Assembly: GCA_021848345.1 (NCBI GenBank)
Contig: JAJZUV010000001.1
Location: 186,001-250,000 of the forward strand
Origin: Pseudomonadota bacterium
GTDB taxonomy: Bacteria > Pseudomonadota > Gammaproteobacteria > Burkholderiales > Burkholderiaceae_C
DNA: 64,000 bases
Reading direction: 5' to 3'
Each line of letters starts with the position of its first letter. The stretch's first letter is position 1. The notes beneath the pieces are model-generated. The model ran no database searches. It was not told the origin of the DNA and saw only the letters and a list, made by a program, of their open reading frames with translations. A program made the position numbers and the translations under genes. Below are positions 28,322 through 35,424 of the stretch, piece by piece.

Positions 28322-28397
28322 GTGGCTGTAGCTCAGTTGGTAGAGTCCAGGATTGTGATTCCTGTTGTCGTGGGTTCGAGTCCCATCAGCCACCCCA
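28322..28397 (+). tRNA. tRNA-His (anticodon GTG), G-1 encoded at 28321
   Basis: GTGGCTG...CAGCCAC acceptor stem, loop ATTGTGATT, CCA encoded. Confidence 0.96.
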
Positions 28398-29975
28398 CCC
28401 GATGCTAGAAGTGGGCACCCGAGCGGTGCCCATTTTTTTGCCTGCCGCCGCCGCCAGCAGCGCGGCATTGCGGCCCTGCATGCGCACCACCTCGCCGTCG
28501 AAGGTGATCTCGCTGACCAGCTCGTGCAGGTAGCGCTTCGGCAGGCCGCTGGAGGGGTCCAGCAGGCGCTTGCGCATGACCTTGGCGAATGCGTCCATGG
28601 TGGCCGGGCTCAGGAGGTCCAGTGGCGTCTCGCCTGCCTGCTTGGCGCCGTCGATGTCCCGCAGCAGCGCTTCGCGCCGGTTCTTGAGCTTTGCGGCGCG
28701 GCTGGCCAGCGTGTCGTCCATGGGGAGCAGGCCTTTCTCAACGGCCTCGTACAGGCGCTCGATCGCGGTGTCCAGTTCGGCCAGCTCCTTGCGCAACTCG
28801 CGCAGGCCATCGGAGCGCTCCTCGCGGGCCTGCTTGAGCTGACCCTTCAACTCCGACAGCAAGGCCTTGAGGCGCTGCGGCGCCAGAACCTTGTCCGCAA
28901 GCGCCTCCAGTACCTTGGCGTCGAGTTTCTCCATCGGCAGCGCAGGGGTGCTGCAGGCCTGGGCATGCTGGGCGATACGGGTATTGCACTTGTAGTACCT
29001 GTACTTCCCACCCTTGCCCGTGATCAGCGTCATCGAGGCGCCACAGTTCGCGCAGCGCAGCAGCCCCGTGAGCAGGGTGGGGGAGTTCACGACGCGTGGT
29101 GGGGTGACCTCCGGCGAGCGCTCACGCCGCAGGCTGGCGACAGCTTCGAACACCTCGGCCGGCACGATCGCCGGCACGGTCATCGGGATCCACTCGTCGC
29201 GGGGCTTGACGGCGCCAGTGCGCACGTTGACCTGGTTGAACAGGTATGTGCCCATGTAGGCGGTCTCCGTCAGAATGCGGTGCACCCGGTTGCGCGACCA
29301 GCGCTGGCCGCGGACCAGTACGCCGGCCGCATTGAAATGCGCCGCGATGTTCTTCGCACCCATGGTCTCGCCATGCAGCCCGTGCAGGTACAGGTCGAAT
29401 ACCTTGCGCACCAGCACGGCCTCAGCCTCGTCGATGGCCAGCTTCTTCTTCGTGCCAGCCTTCCCGGAACCGTGCTCGACCGTGACCGTGCAGTAGCCGA
29501 ACGGCGGCCTGGAACCGTTCCAGAAGCCCTGGCGGGCGTTCTCTTGCATCGCGCGTAATGTGTGCTTGGCGTTCTCCTTCGACTGGTACTCATCGAACAG
29601 CGCGAACATGCTGCGAGCCAGTTCCCCGGATGTGTCATCACCCGTCTGCTGGGTGATGGACACCAGCTTCACGCCCGCCTTCTTCAGCTTGCGCTCGTAG
29701 AGCGCAAGCTCCACGTGATCCCGGAAGAATCGCGACAGCGAGTGAACGACGATGGCCTCGAAGGGGGAGGGCTTCGCCGTGGCCGCCGCGATCATGTCCT
29801 GGAAGATCGGTCGCCGGTCGTCCGTCGCCGAAGCGCCTGGCTCCACGTACTCACGGCCGACCTCAAGGCCTTGGCGCGCGCACCATTCTCGGAGCTGGCG
29901 TAGCTGGTCCGGGATCGACAGGTCTTTTTCCGCCTGACGGGTGGTCGATACCCGCGCATACAGTGCAACAGCCAT
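28386..29975 (-). CDS. Large serine recombinase (integrase); ORF terminates inside the tRNA-His gene
   Basis: VALYARVSTTRQAEKDLSIPDQLRQLREWC resolvase domain with catalytic-region Ser; recombinase domain and zinc-ribbon GLLRCANCGASM; coiled-coil C-terminus. Confidence 0.95.
   Translation of the reverse strand: MAVALYARVSTTRQAEKDLSIPDQLRQLREWCARQGLEVGREYVEPGASATDDRRPIFQDMIAAATAKPSPFEAIVVHSLSRFFRDHVELALYERKLKKAGVKLVSITQQTGDDTSGELARSMFALFDEYQSKENAKHTLRAMQENARQGFWNGSRPPFGYCTVTVEHGSGKAGTKKKLAIDEAEAVLVRKVFDLYLHGLHGETMGAKNIAAHFNAAGVLVRGQRWSRNRVHRILTETAYMGTYLFNQVNVRTGAVKPRDEWIPMTVPAIVPAEVFEAVASLRRERSPEVTPPRVVNSPTLLTGLLRCANCGASMTLITGKGGKYRYYKCNTRIAQHAQACSTPALPMEKLDAKVLEALADKVLAPQRLKALLSELKGQLKQAREERSDGLRELRKELAELDTAIERLYEAVEKGLLPMDDTLASRAAKLKNRREALLRDIDGAKQAGETPLDLLSPATMDAFAKVMRKRLLDPSSGLPKRYLHELVSEITFDGEVVRMQGRNAALLAAAAGKKMGTARVPTSSIGWGG
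28391..28512. repeat. Direct repeat / attachment-site copy, left (tRNA-proximal)
   Basis: 122 bp aligned to 34650-34771; first 52 bp identical, 7 mismatches in the rest. Confidence 0.88.
28412..28440 (+). terminator. Rho-independent terminator after tRNA-His
   Basis: GGGCACC-CGAGC-GGTGCCC-A-TTTTTTT; same structure repeated at 34671-34699. Confidence 0.82.
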
Positions 29976-30189: not shown

Positions 30190-30452
30190 CCTCGGCACAG
30201 CAAGCGACCCAAAACAAAATCCGTGGCCTCGAAAGGGCAGCAGTCCAAGCGGACAAGGCGAAGGGGCTGCACAGCGTGGGGGCTGTCCAGGTGGACGGCC
30301 GCCACGATGGGCATTCGCGTTGGCCGTGGGAGGCGGGGGCGCCGACCCGTGGAAGGCACCAGCGTCTCGGCAACCTGGGGATTGCACTTTCCCCCATAGG
30401 GGAAAAAGAAAGTGCCAGAGCCGTCGGCGTCTTGCGGACCGCCGCCGCTTGC

Positions 30453-31364
30453 CTAGGCCTGCTTGGCCGGCTTGGCCGGCTTGGCCTGCCTGGGCCCTCC
30501 TGTAGCCTCCGCAGCCCGGGTGAACGGCCGGATGATCGCGTCAACGTCCTGCTGGGAGAGCTCTGGGAGGTGGTGCATGTCCTCGGCGTCTAGCTGCACC
30601 CATGTGCGCTGGTCCTTCCGGAAGTGCCACTTCGGAATCCTGGTGCGAGTAAAGCTCTTGCGCCACTGAGCCAGCAGCGACGGATCGCAGTAGATCAGCA
30701 GGCCGGTGAACTTGCGCTCCGTGATGTTGGCGAGGGCGTTCCGGTAGTAGGCGCAGAACAGATCGATATCACGGGCGTTTTTGCGCGAAAACTCGACCTC
30801 GATCCAATACTGGCTGACTTTTCGACTAGCCGGGAAGTCCTTGGCGCGCAAATTAACGATCGCATCGGGGATCTTGCTCGGGCGCTTGCCAAGTGGGACT
30901 CGCTCGAGATCGTCAGCCAGCTCCAGGCCCTCGATCCGGGGCCCATAGCGGCGCATCAAGTGAGCGAGCTGGTACTGCAACTGCAGGTCGTGCTCGAAGC
31001 GAGCCTCCCGGATGCGGTAGTCGGGGCGATCAGGCAAGGCGAAGAAGTTCGACAGGCACATCGCAAGGTGGCCGTGGTCGCTCCGGCCAATCTCCTGCCA
31101 GTGGCGCGCCAGCAGCGTGAGCCCCTCCTTGCTGAGCGTGACGTAGTAGCGAACCGGCGCAAAGAGCGGGTTCGGGACCGGGTGCTCGACCAGGAGCCCC
31201 TGCTCGATCAACTTGCGTATCAAGCCATTGCCACCCAGGAGCAGGTCAATCAGGGCCGTGGCACTCCAGCGGAAGCGGGCTACCCACAGAAGGGCTGTCA
31301 GCGCCTTCGCCCGATGGCGTGCACGGGTATTCAGGCGATGGTGTTCTTGCGGCAAATTGCTCAT
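30453..31364 (-). CDS. Winged-helix, replication-relaxation-like protein
   Basis: RAKALTALLWVARFRWSATALIDLLLGGNGLIRKLIEQGLL wHTH-like start and KIPDAIV...YWIEVEFSRKNARDIDLF (possible PD-(D/E)XK-like core); Lys/Pro-rich tail AKPAKPAKQA. Confidence 0.55.
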   Translation of the reverse strand: MSNLPQEHHRLNTRARHRAKALTALLWVARFRWSATALIDLLLGGNGLIRKLIEQGLLVEHPVPNPLFAPVRYYVTLSKEGLTLLARHWQEIGRSDHGHLAMCLSNFFALPDRPDYRIREARFEHDLQLQYQLAHLMRRYGPRIEGLELADDLERVPLGKRPSKIPDAIVNLRAKDFPASRKVSQYWIEVEFSRKNARDIDLFCAYYRNALANITERKFTGLLIYCDPSLLAQWRKSFTRTRIPKWHFRKDQRTWVQLDAEDMHHLPELSQQDVDAIIRPFTRAAEATGGPRQAKPAKPAKQA

Positions 31365-31422
31365 GGTGACCTCCGATTGCTTCGGTCTAGGCCGCCAGAA
31401 ATTCATCTGCGAGGAATTGGCG

Positions 31423-31499: not shown

Positions 31500-32170
31500 G
31501 GGGCTTCGGGCCGCTTCGCGACCCTGCGCAGCACGGGACCGACCGCACCCCTCTCGCCCCTGACGGTGCGAGTCGCCTTGGGGGCGACCGGGGTGCTCGG
31601 CGGGCTGGACGCCCTCCGTCCGGTCCCATGCTTTGCCTACGCTCGCCGCTGGCGAGCTGCGCGCTGCGTTGCAGCTTGCGGGGCCGACGCGCTGCCGCGC
31701 GTGAAAAGCGCTTCGCAGACTGCGCTCGATCGTTCCTGGCGGCCCGACCGAGCTGGCCCCTGGACGGGGCGCCTTGCGGCGTCCGAAGCGCTTTTCACGC
31801 GCGCCATCGCGTCGGCCGGGCTCCGCCCCCACCCAGGACCGCTGCTCTGGGGAGCAGCTTGCTCCGCTTGCTACGGTCGCCTGCCGGCTTCCTCCGCAAG
31901 TCTCCGCATCCAGGGCGGCCCCCCCGCCCTGAGCACTTCGTCGCTCAGGGAAGTTCGTGCTGGACGCACGAACCTCCACCAGCCAGCCCCCAGTAGCTTC
32001 GCGCTAGGGCCAGCCGACAAACGACCGATCTGGTCAGCCTGGCGTTGCCGCTGCTCGCACGGCTTGCATGAGACGCCCACGCCACCGGCTCCACCCGGCC
32101 TGCCGGGCTCGCGGGGGTTGGCGCTTGACGCACCAACCCCCAGCACTTCCGCTCCAGGCTCGCCCGAAGA
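31500..32170. other. Hairpin-dense non-coding region
   Basis: Series of short GC-rich inverted repeats plus a 34-bp inverted repeat (31682-31715 / 31784-31817, two mismatches); no plausible protein on either strand. Confidence 0.55.
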
Positions 32171-32592
32171 ACGATGGGCAGCGCGCCAGCTTTACTAAGC
32201 CGGTGGGATGGGCCAAAACGCCTCCAGGGACGGCACATGGCTTGCGATGCGCGCCGCAGCGTCCGATGGACGAGCGCGACGAGCGAGCTCTGCATTGACT
32301 TGCCCTGGCAGATCAGCGGTAGCAAGTAGCACTGGCTGCCGTCGCGCGAGTGACCACGCCTGTCACAGACCGATACCCGGAAGTTCGACAGGTCTGTTCC
32401 GATCACTGACAATCGAGGCGACTTCGGTGCCGCAAGTGAACTTTTCCCACCGACAGCCGCCTCAGCCAACCGCTTCGGTACTATAGCAATTGTTGAAGAT
32501 CCGTTTTTCAGGGGTGGTTTTTCTGCGGGATGGTTTATCTGACTGAGTGCTCTGCATAACCTCATCTCGATTTAACGTTCTTTGGAGGTCAC

Positions 32593-33342
32593 GTGAGCTG
32601 GTGTGACAAAGTGGCATCTCGGCCTACTGTTGGCTTCACATTCGAGAAAAATTTTCGACCGAGCGCAGAGCTTTTATCCTCCCTGATACCCGTCCTAGAT
32701 AAACTTGCCGGTCAGGTGGTGGATAAATTCACACTGACTAAGCAAGAGACTTTTGCCATCGAATTTATTACGGACAGTGGATTTAGATATACTGCCGACC
32801 CCGCGAGGGTGGCAGTGGAATTTCAACATCGTTTGAAGGTCAGGAATATTAGTGGGGCGGCTCCTGAGGCGCAGCTCATTTCACGGCAGGAGCCGTATAC
32901 GAAACTTCTCCAAGATGTGGGGCAGAGAGCAATAGAAGCGGCTGAGCTATTGGTTTCGCCCGAGCGACCTCTCAAACGAATGGGGGTGGTTTCTTCAACT
33001 ATGGTGGATGAGCCTGACGTGCCACCTGGAATTCTCCGCGGTATTGCTTACCTAAACAGGCCCTGGGGTCGTGATGTCCCGCACTACACTTTTCAGGTTG
33101 TGGCGTCTTTACAAGAAACTGATGAGTGGCGGGATCAATGTGTGCATGTGATTTCGAAAGCTGAGACGGATGAGGGTCTGATAAATTTAATGTTTGATTA
33201 TCAGCGAATCTTTAAAGCTCCGAAGGATCGACGTTCTGTTCGCGCTGCGCTCATGGGCCTACAGGCGGCTGCGCTAAACTATTTTGAAGATCTAGCACAG
33301 GGGGATATGTTCGATGCGTCTGACGATATCTCAGCCAGCTAA
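32593..33342 (+). CDS. Hypothetical protein, first gene of low-GC HNH operon
   Basis: 249 aa, GTG start preceded by GGAGG; visibly lower GC than flanks; no family recognised with confidence. Confidence 0.7.
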   Translation: MSWCDKVASRPTVGFTFEKNFRPSAELLSSLIPVLDKLAGQVVDKFTLTKQETFAIEFITDSGFRYTADPARVAVEFQHRLKVRNISGAAPEAQLISRQEPYTKLLQDVGQRAIEAAELLVSPERPLKRMGVVSSTMVDEPDVPPGILRGIAYLNRPWGRDVPHYTFQVVASLQETDEWRDQCVHVISKAETDEGLINLMFDYQRIFKAPKDRRSVRAALMGLQAAALNYFEDLAQGDMFDASDDISAS

Positions 33343-33778
33343 AGATGCGCTGCTCCCAGGGGCTGGGGAGGCAGCCAACACTTTTGGGGTGAATACTTAT
33401 GCCGCGTCCACTTTGGAAGATGCGCCAGGAGGAAATTTCGCCGGTTTTAATATCGAATCTAGTGTCGACGCTCGTGTAGAGACCAAAGCCTTGATGCGGG
33501 CGATAATCAATAGGCGCTACAGCGACGACGAGCGTCAAAAATTGCTCGCGGAGCGCCAAGGTATTATCGAAAAACAATTCGCTGGGTTGGCTTCTCGCAG
33601 CGATTTAAATCGAGTCGAATACATAAACTGGACTCTCGACCAAATTGAGGATGCTCGCCATGGCGCTGCCCTCGACCGCTTGGAGGCGTCAATAGCTCGA
33701 TACGAGTCCTTCCTTGAGGGTGTGGAGCGACTGACGCAGGACGTTCATCGTGCTTCTATGACGCGCCGCAAGAGATGA
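33314..33778 (+). CDS. Hypothetical helical protein, second gene of HNH operon
   Basis: Overlaps upstream gene by 29 nt and downstream gene by 4 nt; C-terminal half predicted helical/charged. Confidence 0.7.
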   Translation: MRLTISQPAKDALLPGAGEAANTFGVNTYAASTLEDAPGGNFAGFNIESSVDARVETKALMRAIINRRYSDDERQKLLAERQGIIEKQFAGLASRSDLNRVEYINWTLDQIEDARHGAALDRLEASIARYESFLEGVERLTQDVHRASMTRRKR

Positions 33779-34566
33779 GCGTGAGCAAGGACGCTAGCGG
33801 TGATGCAGTTGCCCCAGCCACCGGGCATGATCTCATCGTGCGGACCGCAGATGTCCCAGTCTACTCGGATTATTCAAAGTATCGGCGGTATTTAAGGCAC
33901 GATTTCTATTATTCGTGCGCGTACTGTACAATTACCGAAGCCGAGGCGGAGGCATTGCGATTTACAATCGATCATTATGAGCCTGTCAGCGCGATGCCTG
34001 AGCTGCGGGCAGTTTATACGAACCTAATGTATGCCTGCGACGAGTGCAATGCGCGGAAGGGGGATTTGTTTCCGCCGCCAGGCGCTAGGCAGGACGGATA
34101 TCGATTTTTCCGTCCGGATATGGATCGGACGAGTGAGCACTTTTCGGCTCAAGGTAGTGCTGTAAGTCATAAAAGCAAAACTGGCTTTTACACGATTACA
34201 GCTCTTAGCCTCAACCGGAGAGCTCTCCGTCGTATTCGTGAGCTTCGACTTCGCCTCAAATTGTGCGACGAGTACGTCAGCGAGGGCATTCGAGCGCTGA
34301 GGGATATAAAAATTGACCAATTGCACCCAGAGCTCAGGGCGAAGGCTTCTCGTTGGATAAAGGAGGCGTCAGATCTAAATGAGCGATTGATCGATGAGAT
34401 TAATGAGGTCTTAAGGGCGGCGGCGCGATCTTCGTTGATCGTTGACGAAGAGCCAGCGGACACGGATGATGATACTTTAAGGCGAGACGATCTAAAGAGG
34501 GTTGAGGGGTTATACCCAGGGCAGTGGCGCGGCAGGGGGCATAGAAAAAAGAAGAAACGTAACTAG
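33775..34566 (+). CDS. HNH endonuclease-family protein, third gene of operon
   Basis: CAYC...FTIDHYEPVS...YTNLMYACDECNARKGD HNH/zinc-binding pattern; basic tail RGRGHRKKKKRN. Confidence 0.8.
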   Translation: MSVSKDASGDAVAPATGHDLIVRTADVPVYSDYSKYRRYLRHDFYYSCAYCTITEAEAEALRFTIDHYEPVSAMPELRAVYTNLMYACDECNARKGDLFPPPGARQDGYRFFRPDMDRTSEHFSAQGSAVSHKSKTGFYTITALSLNRRALRRIRELRLRLKLCDEYVSEGIRALRDIKIDQLHPELRAKASRWIKEASDLNERLIDEINEVLRAAARSSLIVDEEPADTDDDTLRRDDLKRVEGLYPGQWRGRGHRKKKKRN

Positions 34567-34602: not shown

Positions 34603-34771
34603 TCATGGCTCCAGCGCGATGGTCCAGTTCGCATCTTCGTTGCGCATCGCACCCCACCCGATGCTAGAAGTGGGCACCCGAGCGGTGCCCATTTTTTTGC
34701 CCGCCGCGGCCGCCAGCAGCGCGGCGTTGGGCCCCTGCATCCGTACCACCTCGCCGTCGAAGGTGATCTCG
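34603..34771 (-). pseudogene. 3' remnant of a second large serine recombinase gene with att-site copy
   Basis: Encodes EITFDGEVVRMQGPNAALLAAAAGKKMGTARVPTSSIGWG, matching the C-terminus of the intact recombinase; 6 of 7 nucleotide differences synonymous. Confidence 0.82.
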
Positions 34772-34850
34772 TCTACGACTTGGCGATGGAATATGCCCTG
34801 AGAGGCAAGCGGTGGGCGGCATGATCGAGACGGCACTCCGGCCCTGAGGC

Positions 34851-35325: not shown

Positions 35326-35424
35326 TCCGTCACGACGGCAGGCTCAGCACCAGGGCCCTTTCGTCGCTAGGGCGATCACCCAGTTGGCATCTTCGTCCCG
35401 CCCCGGACCCCACGAATGAAAGCC

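Follow-up and report, generated by a model that had tools for sequence, protein, structure and literature searches.

A three-gene cassette on a mobile element at a tRNA-His gene, encoding a PtuB-like HNH nuclease but no ATPase partner, and similar cassettes at other loci

In PtuAB systems arrest or killing is brought about through the action of a nuclease (PMC13096335, PMC11555353). In Septu EcB88, immunity is lost when either the H-N-H motif of PtuB or the Walker motifs of PtuA are mutated, and cleavage of tRNA-Tyr is reported (PMC13096335); PtuAB of retron-Eco7 depletes tRNA-Tyr, with a toxicity that requires both proteins (PMC11555353). The trio of genes reported here lies in a 64,000-nucleotide stretch of DNA, the whole of which is termed the window below. 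Like Septu and the PtuAB of type I-A retrons, it has a PtuB-like HNH protein encoded last in a compact operon on mobile DNA, but it lacks a PtuA ATPase and a retron RT and encodes two other proteins instead. We found no Walker A motif in any ORF of at least 60 aa in the element that carries the trio, no ATPase domain among the element proteins in searches of Pfam, NCBIfam and PADLOC apart from chance-level coiled-coil matches, and, with Pfam, no RT domain in any of the five proteins that the element encodes. As both the PtuA ATPase and RT are absent from the element, the trio is neither Septu nor a retron, and the lack of an ATPase partner, which the initial annotation had contrasted with Septu, is thereby borne out. 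In PADLOC, ZorE of Zorya type II did not appear within the top 25 matches of the third protein, and the other element proteins gave no match to the Zor families of PADLOC. No further known defence genes were seen in the element.

The three genes lie on the forward strand of the window: gene 1 at 32593-33342 (249 aa, GTG start), gene 2 at 33314-33778 (154 aa, ATG start) and gene 3 at 33775-34566 (263 aa, ATG start), with overlaps of 29 nt between genes 1 and 2 and 4 nt between genes 2 and 3. In 300 Markov shuffles of the region the longest ORF measured 119 aa in the median case and 256 aa at most; hence three co-directional, overlapping ORFs with products of 249, 154 and 263 aa cannot be put down to chance. 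The GC content of the trio is 51.5%; the remainder of the element stands at 65.8% and the window as a whole at 69.5%. Gene 1 is preceded on the same strand by an AT-richer leader (32450-32592; GC 0.49) with the Shine-Dalgarno sequence GGAGGT. On all these points, namely the coordinates and both overlaps, the lowered GC content and a leader of its own with a Shine-Dalgarno sequence, our results agree exactly with what had been read from the DNA at the outset.

A 6,259-bp serine-recombinase element, inserted at a tRNA-His (GTG) gene that ARAGORN places on the forward strand at 28322-28397, carries the trio as cargo. The element is bounded by 122-bp direct repeats beginning at 28391 and 34650, the left one (28391-28512) being the element-derived copy, of which the first 52 bp equal the right copy (34650-34771). 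A large serine recombinase with Resolvase, Recombinase and Zn-ribbon domains (Pfam PF00239 at 4.5e-29, PF07508 and PF13408; a PHROG integrase family at 3e-101) is encoded on the reverse strand at 28386-29975; its ORF is open to 30080, and the ATG of the domain-bearing part is at 29975. A close relative, G1051, whose right flank is 98-99% identical, carries the empty site, in the form of the tRNA-His gene, a single repeat copy and then the right flank of the window. This single copy is identical to the right repeat at 121/122 positions and to the left repeat at 116/122, which sets the crossover within the first 52 identical bases of the repeat and gives the element the above length. Thus, the recombinase-borne island at tRNA-His that had been proposed earlier is confirmed by its repeats, its recombinase and an empty site. 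In another genome, G1046, the same recombinase (96% protein identity) sits at tRNA-His, and the DNA shared with the window stops at 30385; therefore, the accessory part varies between such elements.

Several minor features of the element were also seen. The reverse-strand gene at 30453-31406 encodes a 317-aa protein (P0005) with no family match in Pfam, NCBIfam, PADLOC or PHROG; by eye it shows a winged helix followed by an IEVE..K nuclease-like motif, reminiscent of replication-relaxation proteins, and this arrangement suggests a relaxation or mobilization protein. Between this gene and the trio, in a stretch with no clear gene, is an inverted repeat (31682-31817) of 34 nt with 94% complementarity and a 68-nt loop. 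A remnant of a recombinase 3' end is found at the right repeat (34603-34836), and a third, weaker repeat copy (78% over 45 bp) lies 756 bp further on at 35369-35413; together these suggest repeated integration at tRNA-His.

From its sequence, the third protein (P0003) appears to be a PtuB-type HNH nuclease that is still intact. Its HNH motif is complete (C48/C51, D66-H67, N83, C88/C91-N92, K95), and it is matched by Pfam HNH at 2.8e-7, above the cut-off, and by the PADLOC PtuB model PDLC00337 at 4.3e-20, which upholds the earlier prediction of an HNH effector as third gene. Unlike the nuclease of Septu, it falls below the cut-offs of both NCBIfam PtuB (22 bits against 150 bits) and TIGR02646, the latter likewise by a wide margin. 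GHKL operons also have a related HNH protein as the distal gene of a compact operon, and differ from the trio in pairing it with a GHKL histidine-kinase-like ATPase and a receiver-like protein. We noted such operons, often with an N6-methylase, at four loci (L003, L004, L005 and L007) on plasmids of Deinococcus, Rhizobium, Salipiger and Ensifer, and they look like another HNH defence-like operon.

Proteins 1 and 2 (P0001 and P0002) are orphans, with no match in NCBIfam or PADLOC and none in Pfam above cut-off, so that the initial statement that they belong to no nameable family stands. For the second we recorded a single weak match to a PHROG of unknown function (0.002) and a sub-threshold Pfam match. 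No relative of the first was detected among 400 genomes at order level, 274 at class level and 28 from the genus, nor among the plasmids, phages, viral contigs and genome contigs searched; the plasmids likewise yielded no relative of the second. A single-sequence AlphaFold model of protein 1 had a pLDDT of 35, too low to use.

The layout of the trio, that is, a protein of ~250 aa, one of ~160 aa and an HNH protein, recurs at at least seven other loci, most of them in prophages. These comprise a locus in the genus mate G1025 (L075), obtained from a genus-level HNH search, and, by searching outward from the L075 proteins, the IMG/VR contigs L106, L108/L109, L110, L111 and L112 and a degenerate copy, L121, in G174. 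At L075 a single co-directional operon has products of 258, 166 and 226 aa, the first being a TIGR04255 protein (E 1.2e-34) and the last an HNH protein. The first proteins of the other cassettes align with that of L075, and at all seven loci the order is TIGR04255-family gene, small gene, HNH gene. In L106, L108 and L112 a tyrosine integrase abuts the cassette, and the gene sizes and tight spacing are those of the window. A motif resembling ARLEILNxRLxxxxPRVT is common to the middle proteins. The cassette is thus a mobile and recurrent unit, which none of the libraries searched describes. Proteins 1 and 2 of L075 and L106 gave nothing in PADLOC and nothing in Pfam that passed the cut-off, and a full-text search for TIGR04255 in the literature library used found no paper. 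The expectation that the three-gene set would recur elsewhere accordingly holds for the layout, and fails for close homologues of the window's own first two proteins, which occurred in no collection searched. When the genome contigs were scanned with an alignment of two HNH sequences, the L075 locus was the sole match, and one further candidate, L123, was rejected as its neighborhood proved unrelated. The L106 TIGR04255 protein, modeled by AlphaFold with six homologues, reached a pLDDT of 70 and a pTM of 0.71; against the PDB nothing exceeded a TM of 0.4 among the best 50 matches, and a likeness to the AdoMetDC prozyme (E 3e-4) was not trusted given its TM of 0.27 and rmsd of >16 A, so that the modeled fold gives no hint of a function.

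Comparison with these loci suggests that the window copy is a distant branch of the recurrent cassette. Both consist of three co-directional, overlapping or abutting genes of ~250, 160 and 200-260 aa in the same order. The best phmmer match of the third protein is the L112 HNH (80 bits), followed by those of L110, L111 and L106, and all GHKL- and PtuA-linked HNHs rank below the L112 protein. A profile built from the cassette HNHs ranked it second (8.9e-26), behind a genuine cassette copy and with a PtuAB-type HNH much lower at 8e-17, and hhalign aligned it with the cassette HNH at 99%. In the HNH tree it groups with the cassette and GHKL-operon HNHs jointly (89/78), a clade that does not separate which of the two is closer. 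For the partners the similarity is fainter. Protein 1 had no match to NCBIfam TIGR04255 (cut-off 30 bits) and scored 0.9-4.2 bits against our own broad TIGR04255 profiles; its best alignment is with the C-terminal strand-helix of the family, at the collinear place. Shuffling gave p values of 0.003, 0.024 and 0.03 for three broad TIGR04255 models, uncorrected and from several tests per protein, with a global z of 2.4, and an uncorrected p of 0.24 for the TIGR04255 sub-family of the cassette. Protein 2, which occupies the position of the small middle protein, scored above 100/100 shuffles (p <0.01, uncorrected) against the latter in hhalign, in the expected region; Smith-Waterman gave a p of 0.075 and HMM comparison one of ~0.31, again uncorrected and with several tests tried. 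Hence, a PtuB-like nuclease and an architecture are common to the window and the cassette, and homology of the partners is no more than suggested: protein 1 could be a very divergent TIGR04255-like protein, and protein 2 a divergent homologue of the small cassette proteins.

We infer an anti-phage role for the trio from the type of its nuclease, its mobility and the location of such genes in prophages or beside integrases. The odds are about even (a probability of roughly 0.5) that it is a mobile cassette for defence or abortive infection, with a PtuB-like HNH effector that proteins 1 and 2 would control in the place of PtuA. The sensing, gating, substrate and defence role of the cassette may be pictured by analogy with PtuAB. 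Protein 1, in the TIGR04255 position, would be the sensor or a scaffold; protein 2, which is small and rich in helices, would be an adaptor or inhibitor keeping the HNH nuclease inactive. Phage infection or invading DNA would be sensed and the nuclease released with no involvement of an ATPase; once freed, it would cut tRNA or DNA and so halt phage spread, probably through abortive infection of the PtuAB type. If this is true, PtuB-type nucleases, so far reported with the PtuA ATPase, also run under an ATPase-free control pair, and TIGR04255, a family described as 'sporadically distributed', gains its first testable role. As the module is compact (~2 kb), a laboratory test would be simple.

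A small, overlapping operon with an HNH protein last, on a minimal mobile element, could also be a toxin-antitoxin or addiction module that retains the element, with an HNH toxin neutralized by protein 1 and/or 2 and no sensing of phage; the small helical middle protein is antitoxin-sized, and prophages carry the cassette. We regard this as rather unlikely, given that three genes, the first of ~250 aa, are large for a TA pair, and that the PtuB-type nucleases characterized so far act in defence (PMC11555353, PMC13096335). Addiction and defence are nevertheless not mutually exclusive. HNH enzymes are frequent among homing endonucleases, and the trio is encoded inside a site-specific element; its nuclease might thus be a homing or transposition-helper enzyme of the element instead of accessory cargo. 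This is improbable in that the serine recombinase should be enough for integration, the trio is found with tyrosine integrases and other recombinases, and G1046 retains the recombinase yet diverges from window position 30385 onward. The PADLOC match to PtuB would fit a diverged Septu or type I-A retron with its PtuA or RT lost or separated, a reading to which we give hardly any credence as the element has neither a Walker A-bearing ORF nor, among its five genes, an RT domain, and the NCBIfam PtuB score is far below cut-off.

A different kind of alternative bears on ancestry and could hold under either function: the window trio and the TIGR04255-small-HNH cassette could be independent assemblies sharing only a PtuB-like HNH, with genes 1 and 2 of the window an unrelated pair. 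The insignificant or marginal profile similarity of both these proteins would be expected in that case, and PtuB-like HNHs demonstrably shuffle among operons, as those of the GHKL type illustrate. Against this, the two agree in the number, order, orientation and sizes of their genes and in how tightly these are coupled, the best match of the third protein is a cassette HNH, and both partners display a weak collinear similarity. We regard separate origins as a serious possibility, albeit one that we doubt.

Returning to the recurrent cassette, its first family is also found in other company. TIGR04255 three-gene operons resemble the trio in being co-directional with a first gene of ~250 aa, and the sub-branch described above closes with an HNH protein; in most of them, however, the last protein has W-x-QGD and [ST][HQ]xCD motifs instead, and protein 1 of the window misses the TIGR04255 model. 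At 18 of the 32 TIGR04255 loci outside the new cassette, a downstream gene with the [ST][HQ]xCD motif follows a short, often HTH-containing gene; at the others the motif was absent or the 1.5-kb flank too short, and an HNH gene was within reach at none of the 32 (0/32). TIGR04255 genes thus usually stand ahead of a different gene pair, and the partners have therefore been swapped. Given that TIGR04255 and the PtuB-like HNH each have alternative partners, both ends of the cassette come from modular families. Tentatively, and with more doubt than conviction, we propose that TIGR04255 is a common first component of modular three-gene immune or addiction cassettes, whose downstream pair is exchanged between an HTH protein with an [ST][HQ]xCD protein and a small adaptor with a PtuB-like HNH, the window representing a very divergent, ATPase-free HNH branch. 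At L028-L053 and the plasmid loci L084-L087 and L093, TIGR04255 heads a three-gene operon of which the third protein has W-x-QGD and [ST][HQ]xCD, apparently a conserved, unannotated system. On a Rhizobium plasmid (L083:2968-5141), TIGR04255 is accompanied by a third kind of downstream pair and adjoins multiubiquitin, ThiF and DUF6527 genes.
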